A DNA stretch of 64,000 nt from Panopea generosa (Eukaryota > Mollusca > Bivalvia > Adapedonta > Hiatellidae). Where the stretch lies: NCBI GenBank assembly GCA_029582155.1, contig CM055895.1:45461044-45525043 (forward strand), written 5' to 3'. Shown here one piece after another: positions 9,201 through 57,612 of the stretch; within the stretch, counting starts at the first letter, position 1, and the number at the start of each line of letters is the position of its first letter. A program made the position numbers and the translations under genes. A model generated the notes under the pieces. The model was not told where the DNA came from and ran no database searches. It was given only the letters and a program-made list of their open reading frames with translations.

Positions 9201-9405
9201 ATACTGTAATAGTTGTGTTCACTGAGGGTGACAGTGGTATGTAATTTTGACATAATATGTATACCATAATAGTTGTGTTCACTGAGGGTGACAGTGGTAT
9301 GTAAGTTTGACATAATATTTATAACATAATAGTTGTGTTTACTGAGGGTGACAGTTGTTTGTAGGATTGGCATAATATGTATACTGTAATAGTTGTGTTC
9401 ACTGA
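6209..9405. repeat. 60-bp satellite array (about 53 copies)
   Basis: The unit runs GTAAGTTTGACATAATATGT, then ATACCATAACAGTTGTGTTC, then ACTGAGGGTGACAGTGGTAT. Monomers alternate mainly between ATACCATAA and ATACTGTAA variants. At least three monomers (near 6,281, 6,441 and 8,751) share the same roughly 25-30-bp internal deletion. Sixty bases equal 20 codons and the minus strand lacks stops in more than one frame, giving long periodic pseudo-proteins; I do not regard these as genes. Confidence 0.97.
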
Positions 9406-10184
9406 AAGCAGCAGCGATTTGTTTAAATTATTTTTGTAAGCTTAAATGAATTTCAACATCAAATATAACACCTATTTATGTTTCATTCATGATTTAAAAT
9501 TAAATAAATGAAATATTAATGCTCCCTACAGCTTATATGAAATTTCTTTGGACCAATAGGAAATCACTTACAGTATAAATAATCAAAGTGTGTGGCAATG
9601 GAATACAGTATCATTTTATATTATGTATAAGTTGTAAAATGTATTATTAAAATACTAGTTATACTCGTACTAATGATTGAAATGGTTGATTATTTAATTA
9701 TCACTTTTATGATTACTATTTGATTGTTTGTGAAGTGAAAATAATTATAATATACCATAAAAGCTACGGTAAATAAGGATGGTCATGATATTATGTTTAT
9801 CATGGAAATTGCTTTCAATATTCAATGTTTATACAGCAATACAAGCAATATTTATGTAAGTAATTTATAACTGTGTTGATTATTATTATACATCCTATAC
9901 ATTATGAACAAAGTTAATAAAACCCAAGTCTGCCTTTCCCTACTGGGTGTTCTAGCTGTTTCGTTATCATTTCCAACTTATTTAAAATAATTAAACTGTA
10001 ATAAAACTATTAAGTTATCCATTCATGCAAGATGAAATTATTCATTTGACAATGTGTTAAAATAACACTTAAGCACCACCACTGATCATACACGAAACTG
10101 ATCTACATGTGAAAATAGCCAAGAATCAACCTTATACAGTATATTTTTTAATGACGATTATCCACACATCAGATGTGCTGATCA
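9406..10184. other. AT-rich spacer between two satellites
   Basis: Unique AT-rich sequence. From about 10,150 it grades into diverged fragments of the 116-bp repeat (for example ATTGTGGCTCACAT). I see no exon, RNA gene or regulatory signal that I can support. Confidence 0.5.
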
Positions 10185-22000: not shown

Positions 22001-25000
22001 CTAATAGCATTGAAAGCTATATTCATTTATTTTGATAACTGTAAGGAATGTAGGGGGATGGTCCTCCCCGACCCTCTCACCCTTAGGATGGGGAGAATAA
22101 ATGGGTCACACAAATGTGTGGCTGAAAAAATTTAATGTACACATTTATCCAGAAATATAGTTGCTTTACAGACTATTTAAAATCTATTAGATTCATTTAT
22201 TCTATCAACACCTTCACATTTTTAAAAAAAATAAGACTTTTTTAAATTACCGGGTTCCGTTTTCTAGTTCCTTTACATGCAATTATGTCACATGGATACT
22301 CATCATTTATCACAAACGATTTCTTTACCAGCTCTGAAAATAATATGATATCAGTATATAACATTTGCCAAAAGCTTAAACCACACTGATTAAGCATGAA
22401 AGGAAAAATTGAAATAAAATTTTCTCGAATATGACTTCAATAATATCAAGATACCCATTTCATAAAAAGATATCAATAACATGAACTTTTTTAAATCAGG
22501 CTATGTACCAGTAAGTTATATATAAAGAATAAAATTTATTTTGTGAAGATAATTAAATATCCTGGGTAAATAATAATTATGGTAAAGTACAGTAATTCAA
22601 GGACTTTTAAAAATCAAGGGAGGTAACCCGAACGGTAATACTAAATAGGCGCGGAATAGAAATATCGTTGTCGGCACACGTTTACGATCGGATTTTCGGC
22701 GGATTTTCGAAGAAAATGGCGAAAATTTTTATTGACGAAAAAATATCGCAATAAAAAGTATTAGGGTCGGCGGTAATTATAAGGGTCGGTCGGGTTACCT
22801 GAACCAGACCTATTTTTTTATTTGGCCTTACTTAAATGTGCCAAGTAAAGAACAGTTGTCAATACCAAATGCAAACAAATGCCGACAATAACTGAAGTTG
22901 GAGCTTTGCGCATGTCTTCCCAGATTGTTATTATACGGGCATTCGCGGTAATAAGTAAACTGGTCATACCTTATACCGCAAGTCCATTTTTTTTTCAACC
23001 ATGTAAAGAATCGCGTCAATAATAAACAGTAATAAGGTCACTCAAGTATGCCGAGTAATGAACAGTTGCCGATACGAAATGCAAACAAATGCCGACTCTA
23101 ACGGAAGTTGGAGCTTTGCGCATGTCTTCCCAGATTGTATGGTGCCTTACCTGTTTTCGAGCGTCACCTGAAATCGATCACTTCTCAGAATTACGAATAT
23201 CGCGCACGCGTATATGAACTTCCTGCAGAAATGTAAATATTTACAACCAGAGGCCACAGTGTTATTGATCGTGAAAAAATACTCACAAACAATGCTTCCC
23301 ATACAGGTAACATCGTCATTTTGTTATACAAGCATGAAAAAACGTATTTCTCACTATTCCCATTTTAAGGTTGTCAAAAAAAACAGTTTAAAACTTATTT
23401 TTCTTTAAGAAACATTAATTCCAACGTCGTCTGCTGATAGTAAATATATGCAAGGTCAAGGTCAAGTAGTGACAGCCGGAAGTGAGAGCGCATCTCAAAA
23501 GATATTGAGGCTCTAGAGGAGAACCCTTCTTATAGATTTTTTTTGAAAACTGACATTGAAATTATCATAGGATTTTATGTTATAATATAATAGAACGTGG
23601 TTAATAGTTTAAAATGGCAGTTGTGGAATAAACTGAGGTGAACAAATAAAATGTAAACTAGTAAGAATATTGTCTAATTAAAAAATGTTTATATATTTTT
23701 TTTTTATCGTTCCCAGTTATTTCCAAAGAAACTGTCACAGACAAAGAAGTACAGAATATGGTCACCAACAGCTATGACAAGTGCTCTACAGTCAATAAGA
23801 GAGCAAAATATGTCTGTAAAAAAGGCCGCAATAGATCATAATGTGCCTGTGACAACACTAAGAGACAGAGTGGATGGTAGGATTTCAGAAGAAACAGTAA
23901 AATCTGGTCCTGATCCTCTGCTAACACAAGAAGAAGAAGCAAGACTGGTGAAACACATCACCTACATGGCCGAGCTTGGATTTGGTTTTACCAGAGCCCA
24001 AGTGTTAGAAATTGCATCAGATCTTGCAGTTCATATGGGGAAAAGAGACAAATCACAACATTTTAGTATGAAATGGTTTTATGGCTTTCTTAGTCGATGG
24101 CCTGAGTTGCACGTTGTTAAACCTAGGGGTCTTGCTTCTATCAGGGCACAGAGTGCGTCACCTGGAGTTGTCAATACGTATTTCAATGAACTGAAATCCA
24201 CCATGATTAAGTATGGTTTGCTTAACAAACCTGAAGCCATCTACAATTTAGACGAAAAGCGCATCTCAACGGAACACCGACCTCCAAATGTTGTTTCAGC
24301 ACGTGGCATTCCTGCACAAGCAATAACATCACCAAGAGCTGCCAACACAACTATTATTGGGTGTGGCAATGCATTAGGTCAGCAAATCCCACCATATTAT
24401 GTTTTTTGCAGGAAAGAGAATGAGAGATGAGTTGCTCAATGGAAGCTTACCTGGAACAGCTGGCATCGTGACAGACAAAGGATGGTCTACTTCTGCAGTT
24501 TTTGAAACTTACCTTAAAGAACATTTTCAAAAATATGTACGATCTTCTCCAGATAATCCAGTGCTTTTGTTATTCGATGGTCATGCCAGTCATCTAACAT
24601 TGTCTGTAATTGAATGGGCTAAACAAATAGGTATACATTTGTTCGTCTTCCCGCCCCATTGTTCTCACATCCTCCAACCTATGGATGTTGGATGCTTTGG
24701 ACCTTTGGAAAAGATATACAGTACAGAATCCCTGGCATACTTGAGAAAACACCCTGGACAAATCATCAATCGCCACAACATTTGTGAAATATCCAGTAAA
24801 GCTTATACTCATGCATTATCTCCAGAGAATCTTCGATCAGCTTTCCGTAAAGCTGGTGTTTATCCATGGAACCCACAAGCCATAATTCAGACAAAATTAA
24901 CACCGCATTCAATATTTGACATTGCTGTTGAGCCAGGCCACCCTGCTCCTGAAGATGTAAACCTGGGCCATTCTGCTCCTGCTGATTTAACCATGGACCA

Positions 25001-26669
25001 CCCTGCAGATGCTAACCCGGACCACCCTGCTCCTGCAGATACAAACACAAACAGCCAACATACACCTGAACATATAGATTCATCTCCATCTGCACAGCCT
25101 TCAGCATTGCACGCTATTGATGATGACCAAATCAATGGTGTTGGCATACATTGCAGGAACGAAGAGAATGGTCCAAATGCGGAAGAATTCTTTTCTTGTC
25201 TTAATATTGTTAGTGCCAAACAAAATAAAGGCAAGAAAAGAAAGTCATTACATCCAATCGTGTCTGGTCGAGCTATAACCGAAGAATCTGTAATATGCCA
25301 AATGAAAAAGTATAAACAAGAGAACCCTTCCAAACTTCATGTAAACAAAAAAACATGTAAACCAAAACCCAAAACAAAAAAAACGCAAAATAAATCAAAT
25401 TTGGACACCAAAAAGAACAAACAATATGACTCTCCACAACCTGGTCCATCCGCATTTTATGTTGAAGATTCCAACGAAGACGAGGATAGCAGTTCAACAG
25501 ATGATGAATCGTCTAAATGTTGTGTTTGCCACAGACATTCACCACCAACTTTAAGAGAGTGCACTGACGTAGTTATTGTGAAATGGTGTCAATGTGATAA
25601 ATGCCATCACTGGACCCATCTCAGATTTTGTTGTAAAGTTCGTACTGTAAGAAGGCACACAGAATTTATGTGCCCATGTTGTGAAACGTAATAGTTTATA
25701 TTAACAATATTGCAGATAGCCTAAACAGCTCTTTTCAGTTAGTGTTAACACATTTAAAAATGTTTATGAAGTTTAAATACATTGTTGTATTATATTTTGT
25801 GTATTAAATATTTCAAATATATTTACTTTTTTTAATAAATAATGTTTTTCTTTGGAAATAATCCTTCATTCATTCGTAAGGTAAGTGCTGTATTTTCTAC
25901 TTTCATTTATTTGCTCTTCGGCAACCCCGTGTCATTTCAGTGTTGACACATTACGTCATTCATTCATGTGCTCGAATTCAGGTGACGCCATTTTATTGGA
26001 GATTATTGGGGTCACCGTGATCTAACGTAAACGCACCGTGATATAACGGAATGTGAAAGCAGTGAGCATATATTTGTTACCTTTTGTGTAGATAATTACT
26101 ATTTAATGGTTAATTAACTGTTTTGTACAAGCATTAAGCGTCAACATCCAGTTTGTATTGAAATATTTAACGGCGATTCTTAAGTTGTCGAAAACCGGTG
26201 ACACCATCATATTTGAACGGGCATTCGCGGTAATAGGTATATCACGGTATTAGGTATACTGTATATATATCGTGGTGTTAGGTATACAAGGGATATACAC
26301 ACTAATTTGAGACTCGCAATCTTAAACTTTATTTTTCTCCATATAGAAAAAAGTATTTTTTGCATACGTCATATGAGTTCATTTATATTTTGCATATACC
26401 ATATGGGTACCCCCCACCCCACTCACAGAACTTCAAAAGCCAAACGACATATTATGTGACATTGACTGGGAGGGGTACCGTATTGAACAAGCAACAATAA
26501 ACTCACCATTTTCCCCGAAATGTTTACCCTTTGAGAGGCATACATAACACAAAGTATTCTCAACTTCGAACGACTGTCGTATTGCCTCTGCTTCTTCCAC
26601 TGTTGACACCCAGCAAGAAAACCCGTCGTTAAATGTTGGCGACCATAACGATTTCCAATTTACCGCCAT
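19034..26669 (-). CDS. KDZ-like transposase-derived protein, seven exons, 321 aa
   Basis: Exons on the minus strand, in order: 26,669-26,507; 22,333-22,251; 21,711-21,475; 21,234-21,219; 20,729-20,646; 20,061-19,939; 19,293-19,034. Every junction has AG acceptor and GT donor (GTGAGT, GTAATT, GTATGA, GTGATA, GTAATG, GTAAGT), and all phases agree, giving one 322-codon frame. The start ATG has a good context (ATAATGG). C-terminal signatures match the KDZ (Kyakuja-Dileera-Zisupton) type: MHG-ICYGF, then VVYDNACNLHNYALNRDP, then VVDRFHW followed by a Cys, then LNTQIAEQRNSTL. Where related proteins usually have a second His after the HW motif, this one has HWCNP, so a presumed metal or catalytic ligand is missing. 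The N-terminal 160 residues carry Cys pairs but no domain I can name. The fourth exon has only 16 nt and is the least certain part. It could be a domesticated gene or a decaying transposon copy. Confidence 0.65.
21894..22003. repeat. 55-bp tandem duplication, two copies
   Basis: The block beginning GGTGTGCAAGACCATTTTGG at 21,894 repeats almost exactly at 21,949. It lies within an intron of the KDZ-like gene. Confidence 0.9.
22621..22800. mobile_element. 180-bp MITE-like element
   Basis: The block starts AGGTAACCCGA and ends TCGGGTTACCT, an 11-bp perfect terminal inverted repeat. The interior is CG-richer than its surroundings and holds further inverted motifs (GGCGAAAAT, ATTTTCG). It lies in intron 1 of the KDZ-like gene. 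No target duplication could be fixed. Confidence 0.55.
22839..23138. repeat. 90-bp direct repeat, 210 bp apart
   Basis: The segment from about 22,839 to 22,928 (containing GGAGCTTTGCGCATGTCTTC) is repeated at 23,049-23,138 with few changes. A related phrase, GGGCATTCGCGGTAATA, occurs after the first copy near 22,939 and again beyond the pogo gene near 26,219. The repeats may belong to the termini of the inserted pogo-type element. Confidence 0.7.
23150..23380 (+). repeat. Interspersed repeat also found at 38.6 kb
   Basis: This stretch, containing CACTTCTCAGAATTACGAAT and ATCGCGCACGCG, matches 38,590-38,822 in the same orientation through a series of recognisable phrases. It lies immediately upstream of the pogo-like transposase. 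It may be the 5' part of that element family. Confidence 0.65.
23717..25691 (+). pseudogene. Pogo/Tigger-like DDE transposase, frameshifted
   Basis: The frame runs back past the first ATG (23,774) to a polypyrimidine-AG acceptor at 23,716, so the true start may be in an upstream exon. The N-terminus is a Psq-type helix-turn-helix (SVKKAAIDHNVPVTTLRDRV) followed by a CENP-B-like region. The catalytic core has Asp residues in YNLDEKR, LLFDGHASH and LQPMDVG; the last two are 35 residues apart. Near 24,402-24,407 a run of six T carries one extra base: the frame breaks after PYYVF and resumes as GKRMRDELLNG in the next frame. The C-terminus is a Pro/Asp-rich spacer, a Lys-rich stretch and a Cys/His-rich finger (CCVC, CDKCHHW, CPCC). 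An AATAAA lies at 25,834. The whole element sits in intron 1 of the oppositely oriented KDZ-like gene. Confidence 0.9.
25860..26432. other. Flank of the pogo element and start of host intron
   Basis: It holds repeated phrases ending in CGGTAATAGGTAT and GGTATTAGGTATAC (26,225-26,290) and GTGACGCCAT/GTGACACCAT, which look like remnants of element termini. No coding sequence is seen until exon 1 of the KDZ-like gene. Confidence 0.4.
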
Positions 26670-41576: not shown

Positions 41577-43975
41577 CTAGATAGATAGAATCTTTATTTC
41601 CTCCATAATTGGAGAGCATATAATAACATATATAAAAATTGCAGTAAATAATTACATATAAATGAACAATATACAATGAGTTACAAGTGAAGAATGAACA
41701 TACGATACGCCTAATATGATGTCATATTGTAAGAGTATTCATAACATGATGGATTTGTTAAAATAACTAAATAAATTATGATTTTATAAAAATCAGTATA
41801 GCTTTTTAACTGTCATATAGTGTACCTTACACTAATATAAGTGAAATAATAACATTGTCCATCTATAATAAATCTTACCGAAATAAAATGCAAGACCCAG
41901 TGATAGACTAATGACAACGATGAACCTTTTGTATCTTACCGAAAAGAAATTAATCATACACTGATTAACAAACAGTAAACATTAGCAGTATCGATAAAAG
42001 TTACTTTAACATACTGTGAAGTATCCCAATATTGAACAATAATATATCTTCAATCTGTTCAATGTCAGATAAATATTCATTAAGCCCGGAAAGCAGTGCA
42101 TAAATCTGATCTTTAGGCGTCTTTTTAATAAATGAATTAAATACCTGAAGACCACAAGTCGTTATTACTGCGTCCCAAAGCTTATTTCTTTCGACAGTGT
42201 TTGCAATACAAAAATGAACAATAGGTAGTACTAAATTATCTACAAGCGTATTACATTTGTTACATAGCTGTACAGCTGTAAACGATTGCAATTTACTTAG
42301 TAGTGACACTGCTGTAAAACATTGTGCTTTTACATACTGATTTTTCCTACTTAATTGCCATAGGAAGCAAGGCCTATTTATGCTAAACATATTCATGACA
42401 TATGATGGACCCATCTTGTCACTTAACCTCATTAACATTGTATTTGAGTAATGTATTAGCACTTTTTGTCTAAGAATATATTTCCATGCATACTTGGATG
42501 GAAATATTGCTGTTTTAGAATAATTAACCAAATAATTATATAGATCATACTTCGTTAATATTCTATAGATGTCAGGAATAAAACCTAATGTTTGTTTATC
42601 ATCACTAAGATATCTTAACAGACGATTAACAAATAATTGCTTAGCAATATACTTATTCGGGAGTCTGCATAATTGACCAAAGAATTATAGCTTCCTGTAG
42701 TCGATTTCCGTTTCAAGTGAAGTTACACCAATAGAGCTTAAAGCAAAATCCGTATTTACATATTGTGGGATATTTTGGATAAATTTTATACAGAATCTAT
42801 GTCCTCGTTCTAGTTGTATAATATTTGATTTGGTTAATGGATTCCATAATTCACAACCATATAGGGATTTTGGTATTATGATTGACTTATATATTGTTAA
42901 TGTTGTCAAGGGATTAAGACCATGCGGATGTAAGCCACTATTAATAAGACTTAAAAAAAGTCCACGTAACTTATTATTTGACTGTCGAATATGATCACTA
43001 ATACACATATATTTGTCACATATAATTCCTAGATGTGTATAATTTTCTGTTTCATGAATAATGTTACTAGATCCTAGTTTCCATGATCTGCAGTTTTTAT
43101 CAAAGTTATGTTTGGATTCATTAAAAACAACAATAGCACATTTTAATGGATTATAATCATATCTCCATTTTATGGAATATTTGTAGCAAATATCTAGCAT
43201 TTTGTCTAAACCTGACTTTGAATACGATACAAGAACCATATCATCCGCGACGGTAGGGGTACCAACCTTCAAGTTTAAAATACACAACCCAAGACTGCTA
43301 CTTTCTATGTCTCTTATCAGACCATCAATGAAAAGAAGATATAATATTGGTGAACTTTTACCCCCTTGTCTTGTTCCTTGAAGAACATTGAACCACTCAG
43401 AAATCGACCCTTGGTTTCGTACACAGCTTTGCATATTACGATACATATTAAAGAATGACATAAATATATAGTTTGTAACGCCGCTATCAAACAATTTGAG
43501 CATAAGTCCATTATGCCACACCCTATCAAAAGCTTGACGAGCATCTAAAAAGCAAACAAACACAAAACCTTGCTCTTGTGCTCTCTGCCATATAAAATAC
43601 ATTCTTTTAGTGCGAAGGAAGTCATCAAACAACCGAGTCCTTCCTGAAACCCCCCTTGTTGGTTACTTAAATTAGAAAGAAGTTTTTGTTTGGAACGTGA
43701 AAGAAATATATTTTCATATAGTTTAAGAGCAGTAGGAGTTAATGTGATTGCTCTATAATTATTGGGATCATCCTTACGTTTACCTCCGCCTTTATGTAAT
43801 GTTATAATGACGCCTTTGTTCATGTTTGGTGGAATGTAACTTGGGGACAGCATAGCTGTATACAGTTTTGCTAGTGTATTAATAACTATATTTCCGCCAA
43901 AAATGTAATGTTCGTAAGAAACATTATCGATCCCACTGGCTTTGCACCGGTTTCCTTTGATAGTATCTCATAATC
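41577..43975 (-). mobile_element. LINE of a second family, 5'-truncated
   Basis: The frames form one reverse transcriptase with two breaks. The N-terminal portion reads CKASGIDNVSYEHY and GVIITLHKGGGKRKDDPNNY then RAITLT. A frameshift near 43,560-43,600 separates it from FVCFLDARQAFDRVWHNGLM, then VLQGTRQGGKSSPILYLLFI, then the catalytic box as VADDMVL in place of YADD. An in-frame TAA at 42,685 interrupts ...YRKL / FFGQLCRLPNK. The frame then continues to 42,001 with a CNKC motif. The 3' end (GAGGAAATAAAGATTC) is followed by an ATCT-type tail at 41,577-41,590. It is truncated near 43,975. Confidence 0.9.
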
Positions 43976-46618
43976 CGCTCAGTGGCGAGTGTCATTTGAG
44001 CACAGTAAAGAAGCTATGCTGGCAAAATGTGTCATTAATTAATGCAAGTGTCTCGGATGTCTGTAGACACCACACTCGGTGACAATCTGAAAGTATTACA
44101 TAGGACCACATGAAACTGAAATATAAGAAAAATGTAATTATATTTTTCTGTGTTTTTGTTTAATGAGTATTATAAACTTTTTTTTTCAAAAGCAAGAATA
44201 TGTGATCAGAGACAAACCTTATTTCTCATTGCAGATTTTCAAAGACTACCATACGTTTATGTGTTGTCCATTTTTATTAAGATGCTCATTTTAATATCAG
44301 TTTCATACATATAACAGAATGATATCTTAATGACCTAGCTTTTATTAAAATTAAAAAAAGATCACATTAGACGTAAATGTATCATTTAATATAAAATGAC
44401 ACTAAAACGAACAAGGCAACATACAGTTTACGTGATCATGTTTTCATGTTAGGCTATATCGAATATGGCTCTTAAATGAATTTAAAAAAAACAACTAATT
44501 AATTTCATTTCACGAGCTAACATCCTTAATATGTCTGGAAATGTTCATTTCGTCTCTTTGCTTCCGCCGAGAGTGCATATGGCAGTTAATATTACAGTTA
44601 GTTGTAAAGAACGCTCAAAGCAGTCTGGAATGCATAGTTGTACAAATGATCCGCGAGGCATTATAAACGTTACATTTGGAATGCTTCTAAATGCAGATTG
44701 ACACGTCTCAGTTTCCTTTTTACGCGGGAGAAGGTTACAAATGCGTTATGGGATTGTGCTCGTATCTATTGGCCTACAGAGCAACAGGTCGATATCTAAT
44801 ATAATTATTGATATATATGAATTAATTATATAAGTGCCTTTAATACAATCATTGAATACTATCCGTGAGAAGAAGATATTGATTATGTCACGTTTTGGTG
44901 GATTTGACATACCAAGCCATCTTAATGATAATGAGACGCTTTTTATCAATTTTAAAAATAATTTAATTTTTAAAACATTTATAGCGATTTTTTCCTGATA
45001 CAATTTATATGGAACCAGTCTAAGATCAGGCTCCCCTGTCTGCTTGTCTTAGAAGTTTTGAGTCTTTAAGTATGCACATAAATATGTTGATTTTAAAAAC
45101 AGAAGCATAGTTAATGTTTTGCTGAAAAGCTGCATCATGCATCAATCAATAAAATTATTTTCTGTTCTGTACCGTTCCGTTCTGTGTTTTTTTTCCGTTC
45201 GTTTCTGTTATTTTATTACGTTATGGATTATTGTGAGTAAAATTAGTCTTTCCAAGAATCTGGACTGCGTTTATTCCGTTAAAAGTTTGATAACGTTGGC
45301 TCACATATTTTCCCGGACACTGATTCAACTTCATACTAGCACACAGTATGCGATAGTTAAGTGAACCAGGCATTAGACGTGTTTGCTGTTTAACGGTGCT
45401 AAACGCAGTTCTTATATCTCCCGAATCAGGTCTATTTACACCCAATGGAAAAGCAGGGAATGCCATGCCTGTCCCACAATTCATAGCTATTGAACGCTTA
45501 CTAAACTGTGACGTCATTCAAACTTTCATTTGAAGGAACTGACCAATGAACGTGCTAAAATGTGGCTTTTCCAACATTGCTATTTAACGGACCCAATCTG
45601 AAACTGGGTCCCCACTACAGATTATTGTTAAAACTAAGCTTGGTCGTTCTTGAAATAACGAATGAAGACAGTCATGTATTTTATGGTTGCCTAAAATAAA
45701 GACGATTGATTCAGACACGGTTTATAAATATTGCATTGGTAAAATCTAAATTAAATAAAAACAATTATTTCAAAGTTGAAAAAAAATTTTTTTGACGAGG
45801 ATAAGGACATGAAATAAATCTAAATGAATTTGAGACTTTTAAAATGGAATGCATTACTTTTAAATATCATAAAGGATGTATTCCTTGATTAACTTCGAAA
45901 ACCGAGCTAGGGAAGTATCACAGACGCAATTTATGGATAGCATCAAATAAATTAAGTACTAAATGATGTCAAATGCATGTAGCTCGTCAAATCCTGAATA
46001 TAATAATAATAATTTATATCTTGTTCAAGTAAATTGACTGTAAAAGGTCTAGTACAAAATTGTATTATTTTATTTTTATGTCTATTGACAATAAACAGTT
46101 TTCAATAAAACTTTTTCTTTTATAATGTCTGCATATCGAGTTGTGGTTCGATGCTCTCCATTATCATTTATGAAAATAAAGATATGTGAACCTTTTCTGA
46201 ATTTCAGACTGTCTGTGGAAAATATGCCAGACGACATTTTAAATCAAGGTAAGATGCACTATATTCAAATGTAGGATGTGCTTTATTAATATCGCTGTTT
46301 TTGTACGCTACGTCGGTCTATTCTGAATGTCAAGGCCAGGTCACATATATAGGCAATGTGTTCATTTCAAAGTCAATGATGCACTTCAGTAAAACGTAAC
46401 AAAAGGACCACCACTACCCAAACTTGTGTTTAGTTTATACTTATTTATTTTAGCTTTATTGCGATGAAAGCTCAGAGTTTATATAAACCGCTCTCGAGTC
46501 CGCTTCCTGGGTAGAACCAGTACTGAGTGTTGTTTATTGAGAGGCATCTGGTAACGTCTTGATGCTTAATCGTAACATCACAGTTTCAATGCAGAAAATG
46601 GCGACAGTACAGAAGCCC
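43976..46618. other. Long spacer with diverged repeats
   Basis: It contains the 44,223-44,310 repeat of the 41.2-kb unit and the 44,531-44,690 repeat of the 37.8-kb block. Near 46,490-46,540 there is a SINE tail fragment (CTGGGTAGAACCAGTACTGA) on the minus strand. No gene is supported; the short open frames lack domains and splice logic. Confidence 0.45.
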
Positions 46619-47746
46619 TGTGGCAACCTTTAGTGTAACAAAAATCCTGTGTGTTACAGTTGTTACAATAAGGGTTGATACCGCAACCCTTAGTGTAACA
46701 AAATCATTTTTTGTAACACTAGGGGTTGATACCGCAACCCTGAGTGTAACAAAAATGTGTTGTTACACTAAGGGGCGATATGTGACATATTGTTGCAATA
46801 TTTTACAAAATTTAGGAAATCTTCTCTATAGTATCCCTACATATTATTGCAAATTACACAATTTATACAATTTATTCGTTTAATACTAATATGTATTGTT
46901 TATGCAAGCGCATTGAAATTGGGGGGTGGGGTGGTGGAAGGGATATAGTGCTACCAATGTCCGTCCGCCGTACCGTTCGCCCATCCGTTTGTACGTCCGT
47001 TCTTCCGTACGTTACAATTTTCAGGTCAATGTCATTGTTACTAGAAATAGAAAATCGCTGTCAACGCTTACCGGCATTATTTTCCATCCGATGCAAGTTA
47101 CACAAATGGTCAGAACAGTGATACTTCGCATGCGTTTGTGATTCACGATTTTCGGCTCAAGGTCAATGTCATTAAGGGTTTCGGTTATAAATAACCCTTA
47201 ATGTAACAAAAATATACCTATCCCCGGAATAAAATTTTCTTCACCAAATCACATCCACATAAAATTCATTTTGTTACACTTAGTGTTGCGATTATAAACG
47301 ACCTTCAGTGTAACACAATCTATTATGTTACTTTCTTTATTACACCAAGGGTTGCGGTTATCAGCTTATTACTTGTGTAATAAATGAAAAAAGCCACATG
47401 AAACATGTCTTTAAGTGTTTTGAAACAGCCACATACTTTTTTCAACTGTTTTTCAACCGTCAAAAAAAATTACTAACCGTAAACCATAGCCACTTAACTA
47501 CCACTTCGTGTGTGTGGACGGACGAACATGGGTAACACTATATACCCCCATTTCATTGCAGGGATAAAAAAAAATCTAGTTGAAATAAAATTGTTACACT
47601 AAGTGAACCTGTTTTATAATCAAATGCCAATACATATACCAAACATACGCTTAGTGTAACAATTGTTACACTAAGGGTTGACACCTCAACCCTTAGTGTA
47701 ACAAAACCAATGTTGTTGTTTTTTTGTTACACTAAGGGTTGCCACA
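46619..47746. mobile_element. 1,128-bp non-autonomous DNA transposon with 6-bp target duplication
   Basis: The left end is TGTGGCAACCTTTAGTGTAA then CAAAAA; the right end is the reverse complement with one mismatch in 26 bp. AAGCCC flanks both sides (46,613-46,618 and 47,747-47,752). The motif CCCTTAGTGTAACAAAA and its reverse complement recur inside (about 46,660-46,770, 47,195-47,350 and 47,590-47,735), so subterminal and internal copies of the terminus are present. There is no transposase. A stretch at 46,955-47,010 is rich in GTCCGT and CCGTAC. Confidence 0.85.
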
Positions 47747-47967
47747 AAGCCCTGTTAATTGCATGTTGTTTTGTCTTCATTAAACATGTTTGTATCGTTG
47801 GGGGAAGTTGGGTTTATAGCTGATTAACCACAACTGTGACTATGGCGACTATAGCATTTCTGTATCTGTTGGTTTATATTTATATGCAATGCAAGTACTT
47901 CGAAAACTGTTTTAATTGTGTGCAAATCTTTACACAAACCAGATTATATTTTTCATCCGGTTTTGAT

Positions 47968-48115
47968 GGTAAGTGAAGACCTCAGAACGAATCTGAGTAG
48001 AACCACCAACATCCTCCGCTCTGTAACTGACAATTTGTCCAATATAAGTATTTTTGCCCGAGCTGTAATCGCACCCACGGCCTAAGCAGTGCTAGATAGT
48101 TAGGTGGTTTTGTGA
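47968..48115 (-). mobile_element. Degenerate SINE (family shared with 57.9 kb)
   Basis: GAAGACCTCAGAACGAATCT then GAGTAGAACCACC matches 57,870-57,905. On the minus strand a decayed tRNA-like head lies at the right end, near 48,060-48,115. Confidence 0.55.
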
Positions 48116-48266
48116 CAGCTGTTGAACCACTTAGCCACGGAAGCTCTTACACATTGTAAACTCCCTACAGATAAAACACGGAAATTATTTACGGGCAACT
48201 TATCTGTATTCGAAGTAGGTTTGCTGAGCTGGTATTGGATGCAGTATTGGTTGTATAAGGTTTTAT

Positions 48267-48268
<2 letters not shown>

Positions 48269-48306
<38 letters not shown>
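48269..48306. repeat. (TG)n microsatellite
   Basis: About 19 TG repeats. Confidence 0.97.
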
Positions 48307-48307
<1 letters not shown>

Positions 48308-49068
48308 GCCTACACGATTAAGCCGATAGTACGTGTAACGTTTGAGTCTTTCGGCATACCCTGGCCAAGTGGGTTGTCTAGCAGACAGGTACATATCGTG
48401 GTTCAATCCTTTATTGCATTTGCTAAATCAAGCATTGAAAAATCGCTCTCTTATTTACTATTGTTTTCCAATAAAAATCATATCCTTTCCTTGATAAAAC
48501 AAACCTTCTACCGGCAGACTGTCTCTTCATTTAAGATTTTAACTGAACTGCCTTGACCAATAAGAATAAATTGCCTCTAGAAACTTTCAAATTACAACCT
48601 GGCTTAATCAACTGTGACCCTAACTCTGACCAGTAGTTAAAGTTAGATAACATACCTTTCAATATACATTTACATAAATTAAAACAACAAGAGTTCACTA
48701 GCTTGGGAACTGACTAAGTTCAACTCAGCTGCACATTTCTCCTGCCTGAAAGAACTATTTAAGGAAGAAAGAGAAACAAAAATGGATGTGTGTATCTAAA
48801 CTAAAGCGAATTTCGAAATGATATTGTGTTCGTTTTTAAAAAGGTTTAATGTCATTTTCAAGTCAGAGTAAATATGTATAGAACCACTATCCTTTCGTAT
48901 GTAACTGACAAATTTATCATACGATTTTGGACCGAATTGAACTGAACACGACCTCAACAGTTAGAGGTCCTGAGATGAGTCCTTTGACCATTCGGTCACA
49001 GAGCATTCGTTATATTTATTAAACAAATTAAATTTGGAAATCATTGTATTGTTTCATACTATTCTAAT
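48307..49068. other. Upstream region of the RdRP-helicase gene
   Basis: The stretch directly before the main gene has no open frame of note and no obvious TATA box at a fixed distance. A polypyrimidine-like tract and AG acceptor end at 49,077, 11 bases before the start codon. This suggests that a 5'-UTR intron ends there and that the promoter lies further upstream. Confidence 0.4.
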
Positions 49069-49088
49069 CTATTACAGAATAAGCAGCA

Positions 49089-52000
49089 ATGGTGAATTTA
49101 GTTTTCTGCGGTCCAGGTGGGTCCGGAAAACACAAGCTTATTGACGAAATACGCAGGCGATGCAAACACAGATTAAAAAATCATCGAGACATTCTACACG
49201 TTGCAAGGAAAGTTCTTGATAGAAACAATATCAAATCCAGACAAGATTTTGAATGTAACGATCGGAAATACACAAGAATTATCCGGGAAATTATAGAGGA
49301 ACAATGTGCAGAAGAGGATTTGTACACTTCCGGTGAATTTATAACGGATAACTGTGTTATAAACGAACTTGTTATTGCAAGAAGATGTATTGGTGGTAAC
49401 ATAGTTGAAGATATCGTGGAAGGAAATGCGTTATTGGAAAGGTCTCTGTCAAGGTATAGATCGTCGCTGGTAGTACTAGTGGGGCCGTGCCACTATGTAC
49501 ATGATGACATGATGGGATTCAAACTTAAGCCTGAAGATTGGGACGCCAGGAAAAAGGCTTACACGTGTCTCTTTCATCAGTACAAGATACCGTACATAAA
49601 CGTTACAACTACTGAACTTACAGAACGATCTAACATTCTTTCAGAGGCTCTTGGGGGGAAACTTTCGCTGGAAACGTCACAGCTCGAGTTCTACAATCCA
49701 AAACTTAAGCCTGAAGACCAAGAGGTACAGACCACTTTTTCATTTTATCTACCGCGTCCGAAAAGAGAGCAAAGTATCTGTATTCCTACAATAAAGATTA
49801 CTGAGCATAAATACGAGCTAGATTGGACTGAATTCAAAAATGGTGAGACGAATCGATTTATAGCTCGACATGGACACGAACGCTTGTCTTGTCTAGAGTT
49901 TAACATAAATGTGCGTTCGTCGATTGCACAAAAGGTAATGCTCAACGGTATTACAATCAACGGCGATGTTTACTCGTTTATTGGATGCAGTTCCAACGGA
50001 CTTAAACGCCGAAAATGTTACATGTGGAAGGGTTCAAGTGACGACGTTAAGAGTATTCTACAAGGCAATGGCGACTTCGAACAAATAAAAACAGTATCAA
50101 AGCGCATGGCAAGAGTGGGTTTACTGTTTTCTGGCGTGAGTCTCACACGCGTTACAGTTGGTACTGATGATATTGTAAGTGCAGAGGATATCATGTTTAA
50201 TGGACAGAATTTTTCGGACGGATGTGGTGGTATTGGAACAGCATTGGCAAAGACTGTGTTTGAGCAAATTTGCGATTCTGGTCACGATGAGAACTACCTC
50301 CCTTCTGTATATCAAATACGATTTCAAGGTTATAAAGGAGTGTTAGCTTTAGATCGTGCATTGCCAAGTACAAAAATCCTTGTTCGACCATCAATGAAAA
50401 AATTCAGAACGGATCAACACTCATCGATCGGCGTATGCGGTTATTCCCGGGCGTACACATTTGGCCATTTGAACAAACAGTTCATTCTCTTGTTATCGGG
50501 TTTAGGTGTGCCAGATGATGTATTTGAACAAAAGCAAAAAGATCACCTTGAAATGATCGATAATATGAGGACGAATTCTGAAATAGCTATGAGAATGTTG
50601 CAAGCACACAATGAGTTTCATTTGGCCCTGTTGATAGCACGAGTTGGGTGCATTGAACTTTTACCCGAATATAACAAGACCGTAGTGATGAGATGTATCA
50701 GAAGGATCCAAGAAAAGATGATATCGAAGCTGACCAAACTCGATCTACTCATTCCCGAGTCTAGAAATCTCTTTGGTATATGTGACACTTCCGACACACT
50801 TGACTATGGGGAATGCTTTCTTCGTCTTACCGTTTCAGGAAAACCCATGACAGTCCGGGGACAAGTTGTGGTATGCAAAAATCCATCCTATCTTTTAGGT
50901 GACATAAGGGTACTGACGGCAGTTGATGATACAGATAAGGCAGGTTTATCTGAGCTGAATCATTTGGTTGACTGCATCGTATTTCCTAGTCGAGGAAAGC
51001 GCCCACACTCTGCTGAAATTGCTGGATCAGATTTAGATGGCGACCAGTATTTTGTGTCATGGGATACAGCTATTATTCCAAGGAAGACAAGGCCACCATA
51101 CGACTATCCCGGAGCAGTAGTAAAGGAACAAGGCAACATCACTCACCAGTCAATGCTGTCCTACTTTTCTAAGCAAAATGAAACGCAAAAAATGACTGGT
51201 AGAGTTGATAAATATTTCAACAAATGGGCTGATATTAAAAATGTCACCTGCACCGAATGTGAAAGACTAGGGCAATTGTTTTCAAGAATAGTAGATGCAA
51301 ATAAATCAGGGGAAGAGGTAGACATACCATTAGGTCTTGATCCAAGAGAAGTAAATGAATCGGATGGCGACCGTTATGTTTGGCAGCGTATGAAATCGAA
51401 TGCTATAGAGTTTGAAGAGAAATTGACCAAGAAAATAATAGACGAACGGGATAAACAGGATGAAATTTCAACAGAATTTGTCATGGAAATCGTCAGCAAG
51501 AAACATTCAAATATCACGGAATTTGAAAAATTTAAATTTTTTTGGTATCACGCAAGACGATTCAATCAATCTGAAGAAGACACGGTTGAAGTTATCGTAG
51601 AAAACGTTGCACATCATATAAACTTTGCAAGTTTCGGGATAGCCGAAAGAAGAGAGGTAATTGAAGTTGGCGTACCTGTAAAGTATGTCACGAATGCACT
51701 GAACACGTCATATATTCTTTCGGAAAATGACTTAAAACACTTTCAGATGGACAGTCCTTTAAACAATTGGTGCAGGTATGCTGCGTTGGAGGTTGAGTCT
51801 TTTGACTGGAGCCATTTGTATAAAACACTAACAACTAATGACAGAGCATTAGTTGTGCTTGGTTTACCCGACGACGTCATACTAGAACTGCAATTTTTGG
51901 AAAGGCTAGAGAAGGGAATAGAGCAAAATGTAAAGTCTGGAACAATTTCTTCTGTGTTTTACTCGAAACAATTCGATTACAAGTACAGGTATATTCTGGG

Positions 52001-54830
52001 CCCTGAGTATATACTTGACCTAACAGAAGACACTCTACAACTGTATCGTGATGGAAAGAAAAATCTAACATTCGTCTGGTTAAAGGCAACTGATCGGAAA
52101 ATGACAAAACGTCGATGGAATAAGCGCGTCTCAGATGAAGTCGTAAATTCACTTAGTGTCGATCTACAAAGGTTTGACAAAGGCATTTTAACCATGAGTA
52201 GACGTCATCCATTAATTAACAAAATGCCGTTCGTCCAAATAGAGATTTATGCACAGAACTTGGATGGAACTGTACCATACTGGGACACTTTTGACGTGAA
52301 TGACATACTTCCGGTTCCACAAGAAGTCGAAAAGGAGACCGAGACAGAAGAAGATATAAATAGAGATTTTGAGAGTTTATTTCCAAAATTAAGTTTTGAA
52401 GAAGATATTTCAGACGAAAACATTTTTAATGAAGAACTCCAAAATACAGCACAAGAAGGAAACCCTTTTTTGTTCAAATCTATACTGGATAAATGGCACA
52501 ACAGATATTCTTTTCCAGTAGATTCCGCAAGAATGTTCATTAAGTTGCTGGAAAATATTGCAGTTATGATAGTACCAGTAGTTCTCCCAGAAAACATTCA
52601 GATATTGTTAACAGAACTGACAGTTGAGATGGCATGTGTACTCAACAAAAGCGAAGTTGTCATTTCCGCAGCTAGTGCATTAAGCAAACTTCATCTAGAC
52701 GACGTTGTGTACCAACTTGTACGAAATCAAGTAGACACTGAAACCACGATAGAAGATTTTATTTGTACTATTGCACGTTGGGAACTGATTTGGAATATGA
52801 ATTCATCATTTGTGAAGTTGTTTCTTCAACAATTGTCATATGGAATGACGGAAGCTGAGTCACACCATCAGCAGACGAAGTACCTGCGATATTTTAGCAC
52901 TGTTCATGTATTGTCATTACTACAGGAAATGGACATGTACAAGGGAAAACTGCTACCGACAGAATCTCGACGTGATGGCACAGTTCATAATGAGCAAACA
53001 CAGACTTGTATTATGTACTTAAAGCTGGACAGAACAGCCGATGACGAATCCGGTACCATTGCATTTTATCGCACTCACGCGTTGGAGAACCGATCGCGGC
53101 TCTGTCAAGGACAATTCGTTGCAATTACCAGACAATGTGATTTAGAGGCTGTATGTCCGTCACATAAAGCCGTGTGCTGTGTTGGACAGATACAAACATT
53201 GCGCCCGGCTCCCTTCACCGTCATCATAAAGGTGGAAGGGGAAGTTCCGGAAATCATTCAAGCCTGTTTGAAGTCTGACGGATTCAGATATTGGAGATTA
53301 GACCTGATTGGCAATATAACGACGTTTGTCCGTGTTGTTGCTGCCTTGAAACACTTCACATGCGCACCAAAAACAGGTTCATTAATGTCATACATAAGTC
53401 ATCCACAAGGATTCAAGCAATCGTATACAATGCACACTGACTCAAATGACGATGGGGATTTCCCAGGTGTCGGATTCATTCATTCCGAAAATGAAATAGA
53501 TGTTGAAGGGTTAAACGAAAAACAGAAAGAAGCAGTGTATTTAGCTTTGGGGCGAAACATTTGTTTAATTCAAGGACCACCTGGAACGGGGAAAACAAAG
53601 GTTGCGTGTAATATTATAAAAGAGGTAGTCGGTATGAAAAAGTATAAAGGGGTGCTGATTGTAGCTGAGACAAATGTGGCGGTAGATAATATAACGCAAC
53701 GACTCCGCAACGACATGCTTGTCGTAAGATTGGGTTCAATGGAAGGAATAGCAAGTGACCTATATGACGTTTCCCTAGAAGGACAAGTTAAACTTATCGC
53801 CGACAGAGAAGCTAAGCGAACGAAAGTGCGTGATAAACACGGTGATACACACCGAAACACAAGACTGATCAATAAAGTGTTATCGGCAGCTGATGTCGTC
53901 CTCGCTACGTGTGCAGGTGCTGGTGAGCCAGCCCTTGAGTCATGCACATTCGAGTTTGTACTTGTGGATGAAGCAACACAGACGATGGAAACTACTTTAC
54001 TCTGCAGTTTAGCACACGGTGCCAAACATTTGGTGATGATTGGTGACCACAAGCAACTCGGTCCAACTATCAGTGGTACACCTGATGACGACGTTGTTGA
54101 AGGAATACCTGATGTCAGCGATCTGGCGCAATCACTGTTTCATAGGTTAATTGTCGTGAAAGAGATACCTAGTTGCTTTCTTGACACACAGCACAGAATG
54201 CACCCAGAGCTAATGAAATTTCCATCGACGGAGTTTTATGAAGATAAATTACAGGCGGCTGGATCTACATTGAACTCTCGAGTAATATTTCCGTGGCCTT
54301 GCACTAAACCGTATAGGCCTTTATGTTTCATAAATGTAGATGGCAAAGAAATGAAAAGAGGGACGTCGTATTGTAACTTGAAAGAGATCGAAGTGGTTCA
54401 GAAAGTGGTTGATGTGCTTTTAAAGGTACACGAGGAAATGTTCAGAGAATTTAGACTAGGCGTTAACCATATCGGAATATTGACTCTATACCAGGGTCAG
54501 GTGATGGAACTGAAGAAACGTGTTACGGATTCAGTAACTGTCAGCTCTGTAGATGGCTTTCAAGGTCAAGAGAAAGAAGTTATCATTGTTAGCACAGTGC
54601 GATGTAATGATCGAGCAATTGTCGGGTTTTCTGGTGACGCGAAACGAATCAATGTCTTACTCACCAGAGCGAAAAAGGGACTAATCGTGATTGGTAATGC
54701 GAAAACATTGGAAGGATCAGAACTGTGGAGCAGGTGGATTAATCAAGCACCAACACTATCGGTAACTGAAATAGCACCGGTATCAAAAGAAAGCACGCTC
54801 GTGAATGAGAGAAAAAAACACATTCGCTGA
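49089..54830 (+). CDS. RNA-dependent RNA polymerase fused to UPF1-like SF1 helicase, 1,913 aa
   Basis: One uninterrupted frame. Residues 1-200: a P-loop kinase-like domain (NadR/AAA_28 type) with GPGGSGKH, where Ser/Thr is usual at the last position, and DNCVINELV. Residues about 240-1,060: a cellular RdRP with FSDGCGGIG (376-383), QIRFQGYKG (409-417), RPSMKKF (433-439), a KNPSYLLGDIRVL stretch, and the catalytic triple-Asp DLDGD at 648-652. Residues about 1,070-1,300: an acidic then helical linker. Then a region resembling the UPF1 1B barrel, and a complete SF1 helicase: LNEKQKEAV (1475), GPPGTGKT (1496-1503), ETNVAVDNI, DEATQ (1627), GDHKQLGPT (1652), QHRMHP (1701), VDGFQGQE (1821) and NVLLTRAKK (1855). 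The role is expected to be second-strand RNA synthesis for small-RNA silencing, with the helicase clearing the template. In yeast the RdRP Rdp1 works with the separate helicase Hrr1; in worms EGO-1 is linked to ZNFX-1. The start codon has G at -3 and +4. The lack of coding introns suggests retroposition or transfer. All catalytic motifs of both enzymes are intact. Confidence 0.93.
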   Translation: MVNLVFCGPGGSGKHKLIDEIRRRCKHRLKNHRDILHVARKVLDRNNIKSRQDFECNDRKYTRIIREIIEEQCAEEDLYTSGEFITDNCVINELVIARRCIGGNIVEDIVEGNALLERSLSRYRSSLVVLVGPCHYVHDDMMGFKLKPEDWDARKKAYTCLFHQYKIPYINVTTTELTERSNILSEALGGKLSLETSQLEFYNPKLKPEDQEVQTTFSFYLPRPKREQSICIPTIKITEHKYELDWTEFKNGETNRFIARHGHERLSCLEFNINVRSSIAQKVMLNGITINGDVYSFIGCSSNGLKRRKCYMWKGSSDDVKSILQGNGDFEQIKTVSKRMARVGLLFSGVSLTRVTVGTDDIVSAEDIMFNGQNFSDGCGGIGTALAKTVFEQICDSGHDENYLPSVYQIRFQGYKGVLALDRALPSTKILVRPSMKKFRTDQHSSIGVCGYSRAYTFGHLNKQFILLLSGLGVPDDVFEQKQKDHLEMIDNMRTNSEIAMRMLQAHNEFHLALLIARVGCIELLPEYNKTVVMRCIRRIQEKMISKLTKLDLLIPESRNLFGICDTSDTLDYGECFLRLTVSGKPMTVRGQVVVCKNPSYLLGDIRVLTAVDDTDKAGLSELNHLVDCIVFPSRGKRPHSAEIAGSDLDGDQYFVSWDTAIIPRKTRPPYDYPGAVVKEQGNITHQSMLSYFSKQNETQKMTGRVDKYFNKWADIKNVTCTECERLGQLFSRIVDANKSGEEVDIPLGLDPREVNESDGDRYVWQRMKSNAIEFEEKLTKKIIDERDKQDEISTEFVMEIVSKKHSNITEFEKFKFFWYHARRFNQSEEDTVEVIVENVAHHINFASFGIAERREVIEVGVPVKYVTNALNTSYILSENDLKHFQMDSPLNNWCRYAALEVESFDWSHLYKTLTTNDRALVVLGLPDDVILELQFLERLEKGIEQNVKSGTISSVFYSKQFDYKYRYILGPEYILDLTEDTLQLYRDGKKNLTFVWLKATDRKMTKRRWNKRVSDEVVNSLSVDLQRFDKGILTMSRRHPLINKMPFVQIEIYAQNLDGTVPYWDTFDVNDILPVPQEVEKETETEEDINRDFESLFPKLSFEEDISDENIFNEELQNTAQEGNPFLFKSILDKWHNRYSFPVDSARMFIKLLENIAVMIVPVVLPENIQILLTELTVEMACVLNKSEVVISAASALSKLHLDDVVYQLVRNQVDTETTIEDFICTIARWELIWNMNSSFVKLFLQQLSYGMTEAESHHQQTKYLRYFSTVHVLSLLQEMDMYKGKLLPTESRRDGTVHNEQTQTCIMYLKLDRTADDESGTIAFYRTHALENRSRLCQGQFVAITRQCDLEAVCPSHKAVCCVGQIQTLRPAPFTVIIKVEGEVPEIIQACLKSDGFRYWRLDLIGNITTFVRVVAALKHFTCAPKTGSLMSYISHPQGFKQSYTMHTDSNDDGDFPGVGFIHSENEIDVEGLNEKQKEAVYLALGRNICLIQGPPGTGKTKVACNIIKEVVGMKKYKGVLIVAETNVAVDNITQRLRNDMLVVRLGSMEGIASDLYDVSLEGQVKLIADREAKRTKVRDKHGDTHRNTRLINKVLSAADVVLATCAGAGEPALESCTFEFVLVDEATQTMETTLLCSLAHGAKHLVMIGDHKQLGPTISGTPDDDVVEGIPDVSDLAQSLFHRLIVVKEIPSCFLDTQHRMHPELMKFPSTEFYEDKLQAAGSTLNSRVIFPWPCTKPYRPLCFINVDGKEMKRGTSYCNLKEIEVVQKVVDVLLKVHEEMFREFRLGVNHIGILTLYQGQVMELKKRVTDSVTVSSVDGFQGQEKEVIIVSTVRCNDRAIVGFSGDAKRINVLLTRAKKGLIVIGNAKTLEGSELWSRWINQAPTLSVTEIAPVSKESTLVNERKKHIR

Positions 54831-55175
54831 ATTATTATAAAATACACATGGATGTACATTTTCAACTTCAAATTGATTTATGATGAAAATAGTTTATACA
54901 GGAATCGATATCCATGTATCAAAATTGCGTGTAGAGGCAGATGAAAACAATAGTTACTTGGATATAAATGACAAATTCATTTGTGGATAAGTTTTAATTG
55001 ACACCTAAATAGGTTCTATATGAATTGAACACCTCGTCCTACGCGAATCCGGTGTGTTTGATATTGAAACAATAATTGCAGATTTAGTTGAACGCTTGTG
55101 AACTTGCGCATATGCTGCTCTGCTAACGTGATGTGACAATGACTATGGCAACCAATGTACGCAAACACAACCTGA

Positions 55176-55176
<1 letters not shown>
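54831..55176. other. 3' flank of the RdRP-helicase gene
   Basis: There is no canonical AATAAA in the first 300 bases; TATAAA at 54,836 is the nearest variant. No other feature is seen. Confidence 0.4.
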
Positions 55177-55250
<74 letters not shown>

Positions 55251-55388
55251 GTTTTTCTCTCTGTCTCTCTCTCTCTGTGTCTCTCTCTCTGTCTCTCTCT
55301 CTCTTTCTATTTCTCTCTCTCTCTGTCTCTCTCTCTCTTTCTATTTCTCTCTCTCTTTCTCTCTTTCCCTCTTTAGCCCTCTCTCTAT
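55177..55388. repeat. (GTCT)n followed by CT-rich microsatellite
   Basis: About 16 pure GTCT units are followed by about 145 bp of imperfect TC repeats with GT and TT interruptions. Open frames on both strands here are artefacts of the repeat. Confidence 0.97.
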
Positions 55389-55715
55389 ATATATGGATAT
55401 GGACTAAGAGTTCACATGTTGTACTCATTATATCCCACATTCTTTTTTAAAATGTCTTGGTATACTTTTGTATATGTTAAATAGTAATTCTGTAATTATC
55501 GGTGTAATTTTTCAATCACATTAAGTTGTGTGAATTGAATACTAATAACAAAAGTATTCCAGTTATATTGAGAACGAGAAAGATGTTAATTCTTTAATTG
55601 ACGGTATTTTTTGTATTTTTCATATTTCTATAATATTTTTACTTATGTATATGCGTACATTGCTGTGTATATTTTCTTATCATCTGGATGTGCGCCTGTG
55701 TATATGATACATCAG

Positions 55716-55925
55716 TGGGGCTCGTGGTCCAGTGGTTAAGCACCGAACCCATGATAGGAAGGTCGTGGGTTCGATCCTGTGCCACGGCTATGTGTGCTGT
55801 CCCTGAGCAAGGCACTTTTCCGCATATGCTTAGTACTGATTCTGATTAGAAAGAATTCTAGGGTGAGTTGCCTAAGTTGTAAAAACTTGTTTCATAATCA
55901 AAGTTAAATCAATAAGTAACTAACT
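55716..55925 (+). mobile_element. tRNA-derived SINE
   Basis: The head has CGTGGTCCAGTGGTTAAGCA (A-box region) and GTGGGTTCGATCC (B box). The body shares CTGAGCAAGGCACTTTTCCG and TTAGTACTG with the copies at 57.4, 60.6 and 63.7 kb. The tail includes AAATCAATAAGTAACTAACT. Confidence 0.85.
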
Positions 55926-56005
55926 ACATCACGTAAGGGGCGGGGGCATTTACGATGTGTATATGTGCTTATTATCAGGCATGGGGGTGAGGGAGTGCTA
56001 TTGTT

Positions 56006-56057
<52 letters not shown>

Positions 56058-57429
56058 TATTATTAGGAGGTTATTAGGCGCGCGTATGTGGTTATAATCA
56101 GGGAAGAGGTTGCGGCGTGTGCGCGCGCATTGGGTTATAATCAGACTAGAGGTTGAGGCGTGTGCGCTCACATGTAGCTATTATCAGACTAATGGTCGGG
56201 GCTTGTGTGCCCATATCTGTCGCCGGGTGAGGGAAAGGGTTAGTGCGATGTAGGTATTAGCTCATTATTAAACATACGTGCGTAGCAATTTTACACTGAC
56301 ATACCAAAATGTCCATTTGTAGCTGTATAGTTTAGATAAGAGAAATATTGTATCATTTATTCCGTAAGTATGTGTGTCTTTTTTGCATGCCCAACTTTCA
56401 GAACCATTCATAACTATATAGAAAATCAGGGACACAATTTAATTTAGTTCAAAGTCACACTCCTTAGTTTGTATTAAGGGCAATAAGGTGCTCTCGTTGT
56501 CTGTCTAGAGGCCATCAAAAGCAAGTATGCATTTAGGTCAGTTATTGTGAAAGTTGATATTTATGCGAAATGTAAGAGCACAGTTTTGTAGTTTTAACTA
56601 CTTCCATATAAAACGCATCACTATTGTGCACTCAGCACCTGTTGTCATATAATGTGTTGTTTTACGGCTGACTGGAAAATACTAAATAAATAATATGGTT
56701 TCCGTTAATACCTTGTTTACGTTTCGTAAATCCAATTTGATTTCATATACTTGCAGTATGATTCCTTTAAGTGAATTGCAGGGACAGTTTTGATAGATAA
56801 CTGGAATAGATGTCTTCAATCTGGGGACGCACATATTGAACATGTAAATGTTAACTGAAAGTTGATAGAGTTGTCTTAAAATAAAATATTGCAATAGATA
56901 CGAGTTTATCAGTTGGAAAAATATAAAACGTAGTTCGTTGCTGTCGTAGTATATTAAACGGCAGAATCGAACCATATTTATCAATCGGCATTCGCATTTT
57001 TTTTTAAATCTTACGTTATGCCACATTTGGAATATTGTCTTGTTGCTCAACAATTCAGGGGAATGTACTTCTGAACTCAAGAAATCTAATAGTAAAACTT
57101 TAAACAGTTTGACACACTGTCAAGTGACACTTTTCTGAATTAGATTGGATGGAATTTCCCGATAGAGATTGAGTTTAATAGTAATCGTAAAACGCATATT
57201 ATAAATAGAATTCCACCGTCTTATCATCGAGATTCGTTTAAGTGCAACATGCAATACATTCTCGAAAGACCTACTTCAGAAAACCGAAGCCAGACTGTGA
57301 ATTAATTAGAAAGTTTTTTTTTAAAATCGTATTCAAGGGCTTTTGAAATTCCATCCCCAACTTTATCAAATTATCAGATGGTATTTTACAGTATGAAAGT
57401 AAATATCTTCAATAGAGCAAATTATAGTA
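55926..57429. other. Spacer with a GTG/CGC-rich stretch and TA microsatellite
   Basis: 56,080-56,260 holds four or five loosely repeated phrases of about 50-60 bp (GTTATAATCAGG/ATTATCAGACTA, GAGGTTG, GCGTGTGCGC), also seen just before the TA run (55,960-56,000). A minus open frame at 56,682-57,080 shows no domain. No gene is supported. Confidence 0.5.
56009..56054. repeat. (TA)n microsatellite
   Basis: About 23 TA repeats, within the GTG/CGC-rich repeated stretch. Confidence 0.97.
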
Positions 57430-57612
57430 AACCAGTGTTTGAACATTGGACCTAGAATCGGAGGATCGAACCAACGCTTACGTGAAGTTTCCTTGAGCTA
57501 GACACTATCAGCATATACCTAGTACTGGTTCTACCATGGAAGAAAGGGGTGAAATTTGTCTAAGTTGTAAGAACTTGTTTACATTCGGTGTAAAATAAAT
57601 AAGTTTAAAACA
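57430..57612 (+). mobile_element. Degenerate SINE, same family as 55.7 kb
   Basis: It retains GGATCGAACC, CCTTGAGCTAGACACTATCA, TACCTAGTACTGGTTCTACC and AAGTTGTAAGAACTTGTTTA in the family order. The head has decayed. Confidence 0.75.

Follow-up and report, generated by a model that had tools for sequence, protein, structure and literature searches.

Within the window (the whole analysed stretch of 64,000 nucleotides of the Panopea generosa genome), a gene on the forward strand (49089..54830, +) codes for 1913 residues in a single frame, along which Pfam, motifs, fold comparison and relatives place, one after another, a kinase-like domain, an RNA-dependent RNA polymerase (RdRP) and a UPF1-like helicase. 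On balance, the product is probably a three-part chain of one old fusion family, whose most likely role is making complementary RNA for silencing. The RdRP-helicase fusion is real, old, widespread and already in print for two lineages (amphioxus BL02069 and fungal Fgrdrp5); new here are the triple architecture, which was not found in the open-access literature, the single RdRP match in the genome, the correction of a ZNFX1/Hrr1 assignment, and the evidence for a single origin and joint inheritance of the fused parts.

The frame (49089-54830, +, in the window's reading-frame list) runs uninterrupted for 1913 codons from an ATG start, a length for which the chance of staying open is ~2e-59 with independent bases of the window's composition. 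It very probably represents the whole protein rather than two neighbours joined, since three relatives (P0001, P0002 and P0003) align over 99-100% of the query length and Met1 is near-invariant across the 64 aligned rows. A splice-acceptor-like stretch with a CAG end (49060..49077, +), read from the sequence 11 bases 5' of the start codon, may mark where a 5' UTR intron stops.

The RdRP domain (PF05183, residues 275-750; 49911..51338, +) scores 364.8 bits against a cut-off of 23.8 (Pfam, E 1.2e-108), has RNA-dependent RNA polymerase 2 (7eu0, 208 bits) as its PDB sequence match, and carries the DbDGD motif of eukaryotic RdRPs as DLDGD (residues 648-652; 51030..51044, +). The gene thus encodes a cellular RdRP with an intact catalytic motif, for which RNA synthesis would be the predicted activity. 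Residues 751-1096 (51339..52376, +), whose columns are conserved within the family, are probably the C-terminal polymerase part, and between polymerase and helicase the AF2 model (mean pLDDT of 89 over residues 1097-1913) has an all-helical stretch at residues ~1106-1287 (52404..52949, +). The helicase itself (residues ~1307-1892; 53007..54764, +) is, by Pfam, PDB matches and the AF2 model, of the UPF1-like SF1 type: strands that are presumably 1B-like precede what we take to be RecA-like domains, the fold is UPF1-like, AAA_12 matches residues 1679-1872 (Pfam, E 6.9e-54), and AAA_11 (E 5.9e-42) matches two stretches upstream of it, the best one being 1576-1661. The strings that we read as helicase motifs I, Ia, II, III, IV, V and VI are all present, among them GPPGTGKT (motif I, residues 1496-1503; 53574..53597, +), VDEATQ (motif II, residues 1626-1631; 53964..53981, +) and RINVLLTRAKKG (motif VI, residues 1853-1864; 54645..54680, +). 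The first-pass annotation, which had described an intact eukaryotic RdRP followed by a complete SF1 helicase in one frame and had proposed a Pfam search as a check, was therefore right about these two parts (PF05183, AAA_11 and AAA_12 all match), yet it missed the third domain at residues 1-224.

It had also called the helicase UPF1/Hrr1/ZNFX1-like, of which the UPF1 likeness holds (216 bits in the PDB sequence matches, and the fold), whereas ZNFX1 as the nearest relative does not (115 bits, with Sen1 in between at 167). Judged by sequence comparison, the helicase is nearer to UPF1, Sen1 and IGHMBP2 than to ZNFX1, the IGHMBP2-family helicase model of NCBIfam scoring 274.7, below its cut-off of 348.9, and other helicase models being weaker still. 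A ZNFX1/Hrr1 identity is unsupported, given those bit scores and a separate ZNFX1 in the same genome; an AU test in which the fusions and the genome's own ZNFX1-like loci were held together did not reject that arrangement (p 0.194, 42-row tree). The window helicase also falls outside the UPF1 rows of a 65-row helicase tree, and differs from UPF1, Sen1 and IGHMBP2 by the fused polymerase, the preceding helical stretch and the lack of a CH-domain match (PF09416 before the helicase is absent from the 24 Pfam families matched at E up to 1). An RdRP acting with an SF1 helicase is known from S. pombe Rdp1-Hrr1 and C. elegans ZNFX-1, but those are separate proteins, while the polymerase and helicase of the window are one chain, and the fusion is not to be invoked as direct evidence that an RdRP and ZNFX1/Hrr1 are partners. 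Dictyostelium RdRPs are likewise natural fusions of RdRP and helicase, differing in that theirs is a Dicer-type SF2 helicase situated at the N-terminus.

The N-terminal P-loop kinase-like domain (residues 1-224; 49089..49760, +) has, by fold comparison, the NadR/thymidylate-kinase fold at an identity of ~13% to NadR ribosylnicotinamide kinase and thymidylate kinases. Unlike in those enzymes, the motif positions are partly changed in the bivalve domains, and in the window gene the domain is eroded, or partly degenerate: its Walker A position (49110-49133, +) reads GPGGSGKH and so departs from GxxxxGK[ST], which is present in 49 of the 64 aligned rows. Among 118 strict fusions (117 listed plus the window gene) the domain is found in 75 and undetected in 43, calls that depend on a score and position filter (an unfiltered loose profile also caught helicase P-loops) and in which a missing domain may simply mean an incomplete sequence. 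Because those 43 include fungi and amphioxus, the domain seems to be dispensable for the core function; its presence as a label requires two changes inside the fusion group of the 59-row RdRP tree. It may be a regulatory module that binds nucleotides, with weak catalysis or none in bivalves. Neither the kinase-like domain nor the triple architecture was found described in the literature covered, which was open-access with few subscription papers, and the domain, with motifs intact in many members and eroded in bivalves, is the unexplained part of the protein that comes with testable predictions.

The first-pass annotation had discussed the fusion for this animal and had proposed searching related genomes for the same architecture; uniqueness is ruled out by that very architecture in many listed relatives, found in named animals, a diatom and fungi. 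Three protein searches (the best 120 of 794, of 187 and of 880 matches) listed 354 different proteins, and 117 of the 234 listed by the first two have an RdRP followed by a near-complete helicase (a span of at least 300 residues and at least 100 bits, C-terminal to the RdRP), with loose window-built profiles giving RdRP plus helicase in 127 of the 234. Fusion holders among the matches listed are bivalves, cnidarians, sponges, a rotifer, amphioxus, a crinoid, diatoms and fungi. The triple form is seen, among those matches, in the molluscs Mercenaria, Mya, Dreissena and three Mytilus, in the cnidarians Actinostola and Hydractinia, and in Ephydatia, Oopsacas, Adineta and the diatom Seminavis, while the named fusions without a detected kinase-like domain include those of Branchiostoma belcheri, Anneissia, Aspergillus, Ascochyta, Agrocybe and Volvox. 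All three domains are also carried by a Trinity ORF from eukprot (P0098, 1814 aa, labelled complete), which puts the junction inside a single transcript contig of another eukaryote.

Whether these chains go back to one fusion or to several was approached through separate trees of the two domains. In the careful RdRP tree of 59 rows, whose fusion group was named after a quick tree of 103 rows had been seen, a branch supported at 100/100 separates 40 fusion-group rows from 19 stand-alone RdRPs (plants, Sycon sponges, mites, Nematostella, amphioxus, an amphipod, fungi and two unnamed rows); in both trees spans below 380 were dropped, unnamed rows were sampled and rows were labelled by loose domain criteria. 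Eight of the 40 (P0101, P0105, P0108, P0128, P0132, P0142, P0155 and P0208) are without a near-complete helicase, which represents either losses or cut records or gene models. The window RdRP sits with P0005 at 95/95 among bivalve rows, and the earlier suggestion of a probable mollusc is supported, since its neighbours are Mercenaria, Mya, Dreissena and Mytilus, alongside a sea anemone and some unnamed rows. On the helicase side, a branch at 81/84 sets the 35 fusion helicases of the 65-row tree apart, and the support for all fusion helicases being on one side is 46 with 98 rows, 81/84 with 65 and 82/91 with 42, in trees for which three rows were excluded because of their length and others were sampled, long-branch and redundant rows having been removed for the 65-row one. 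Fungal and Volvox fusion helicases are on the other-helicase side of the 98-row tree when it is midpoint-rooted, as are the rotifer, amphioxus and crinoid ones in the 65-row tree. For 40 fusions, the RdRP and helicase trees have 22 of 37 splits in common (at most 3 in 2000 label shuffles). Since the RdRPs form one group and the two trees agree, the likeliest history appears to be one old eukaryotic fusion inherited as a unit, with moderate support from the helicase.

The RdRPs of two diatoms and one environmental row (P0100, P0105 and P0108) are nested among animal rows at 98/98, which may reflect transfer between animals and stramenopiles; Pinzon et al. place stramenopile and fungal sequences inside a metazoan (beta) group (PMC6396948). 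In the RdRP tree as in the helicase tree, the fusion of the sea anemone Actinostola (P0008) is found among bivalve rows and apart from Hydractinia, the other named cnidarian with the triple form, for which placement transfer, paralogy and contamination are alternative explanations.

As for the rest of the genome, an exon-by-exon search (1.47 Gb in 39 contigs) returned one PF05183 match, the 49089-54830 gene (two candidates were scored), whereas Piwi-domain exons were matched 13 times at three places, one Ago2-like and two Piwi-like, no further Argonaute class being seen in this Piwi-domain exon search of the genome. As Piwi-domain genes were recovered exon by exon, an RdRP broken up by introns, had there been a second one, would probably have shown up as well. 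A lone RdRP match fused to its own helicase makes for a single-gene test of a broader question: do animal RdRPs outside nematodes feed silencing? AAA_12 has 46 genome matches, with the window gene as the best one. L017, the one row compared with ZNFX1 out of five own-genome ZNFX1-like tree rows, scores 701 bits to it, and it is on this ground that ZNFX1 is regarded as separate from the fusion here; the other four rows group with L017 at 100/100 in the 42-row helicase tree, in which the five own-genome AAA_12 loci do not join the fusion helicases, and an expansion of the ZNFX1 class in this genome is likely. The nine other complete AAA_12 matches (L012-L020; contigs C1, C14 and C18) are single frames of 841-2129 residues.

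In the proposed mechanism, the RdRP would copy single-stranded RNA into complementary RNA, which would either feed Dicer and Argonaute or directly supply antisense RNA, with the Ago2-like place and the two Piwi-like places in the genome counted as candidate recipients of the products. The helicase, for its part, would clear proteins and structure from the template, or else peel off the product. UPF1 moves 5' to 3', and as a helicase of that direction would run with the polymerase only on the nascent strand, product peeling would be the favoured geometry, provided that the polarity is UPF1-like. The enzymatic activity, the RNA substrates and the place in silencing are all things that we infer.

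The nearest functional parallel comes from the fungus Fusarium graminearum, whose Fgrdrp5 is described as having RdRP, DEXDc and AAA (PF13087) in one chain, and upon the deletion of which reads of 21-25 nt 5'-U ex-siRNAs went down by ~32% and ascospore discharge fell to 47.6% (PMC11237814). Its likeness to the window protein lies in an RdRP followed by a helicase with the PF13087 domain, and it is placed with the family by this described layout; it differs in that the accessible text describes no N-terminal kinase-like domain and its authors call the helicase DEAD-like (PMC11237814). Because the ex-siRNAs lowered by the deletion are Dicer-dependent, at least one protein of the described layout feeds silencing, and this small-RNA phenotype in a fungus makes function comparable across a very old family. 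Counted against a silencing role are three sets of published observations. Deleting Fgrdrp5 costs the fungus less ex-siRNA than deleting either of two further RdRPs, for which the losses are ~70% and 80% (PMC11237814). For the amphioxus RdRP genes, the authors consider that an active enzyme may not be made at all, and otherwise suggest, as speculation, a function apart from RNAi (PMC6396948). A survey that lists RdRPs for Bivalvia and for several further groups of animals, and found none in the dog whelk, detected no small RNAs of viral origin in two RdRP-bearing animals, a sponge and a sea anemone (PMC6085071). Amphioxus BL02069 has, like the window protein, an RdRP plus AAA_12 according to the Fig 1B legend (PMC6396948). 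Its counterpart in the present dataset would be P0107 of B. belcheri, which falls among the fusions in the RdRP tree and in the helicase tree alike and, unlike the window protein, has no detected kinase-like domain.

A more elaborate version of the silencing role, held as a tentative and rather unlikely one, would see a single RdRP-helicase lineage in which the kinase-like domain licenses RNA copying, acting on an RNA 5' end or a nucleotide signal, and the helicase strips the product, so that single-stranded antisense RNA would be made without a separate helicase; its holders would be sponges, cnidarians, bivalves, a rotifer and diatoms.

UPF1 and Sen1 have roles in RNA surveillance and termination, and the helicase being closest to these two lends weight to a somewhat unlikely alternative, in which the fused RdRP-helicase works outside RNAi, in RNA surveillance or as an antiviral polymerase/sensor (in the surveillance version, for example, a UPF1-like helicase would recognise aberrant RNA, which the RdRP would copy or mark). 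The amphioxus speculation and the sponge and anemone result cited above point the same way, as does the restriction of Piwi-domain exons to three genome places, Ago2-like and Piwi-like; the drop in Dicer-dependent ex-siRNAs in the Fgrdrp5 deletion speaks against it.

Horizontal or mobile acquisition without an established host role is quite improbable. It would fit a coding region in one frame, where the matched Piwi-domain exons code for ~45-80 residues each, as well as the patchy distribution, the diatom rows nested inside animal rows, and some relatives on contigs that barely exceed the coding length (P0002, 1899 aa in 6516 bp; P0012, 1924 aa in 7141 bp). However, ZNFX1 and other SF1 helicases of this genome also occupy long single frames, for which reason a coding region in a single long exon is nothing unusual in it, the window gene keeps company with bivalves in both domain trees, and a scan of viral contigs with a single-protein query found no relative. 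A mobile-element framing was likewise dropped, none of the repeats of at least 24 bases within 46500-57500 flanking the gene on both sides; those present are simple repeats at ~55150-56206 and small families at 46619-48914. That two neighbouring genes were joined by the assembly or the gene model has next to no probability and is rejected, the frame having no stop, many unrelated genomes and contigs, and also a transcriptome ORF, sharing the domain order, the RdRP and helicase trees being congruent, and nothing having been found in its favour.

A scan of the window against Rfam at gathering scores yielded no match. At 46619-47746, a motif around AACCCTTAGTGTAACAAAA recurs in direct and inverted copies, with inverted ends ~1.1 kb apart, and this is perhaps a short transposon. 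Two overlapping frames of a transposon of the Tc5/pogo type (HTH_psq and HTH_Tnp_Tc5, then DDE_1) lie at 23774-25691 (+), and a reverse transcriptase match (RVT_1, E 4.3e-17) at 42685-43632 (-) is probably a retroelement remnant. Strong GC skew is seen at 6001-10000, and long open frames at 6386-9373 (-) are built of a repeated unit around 'SNLHTTVTLSEHNYYGIHIM'.
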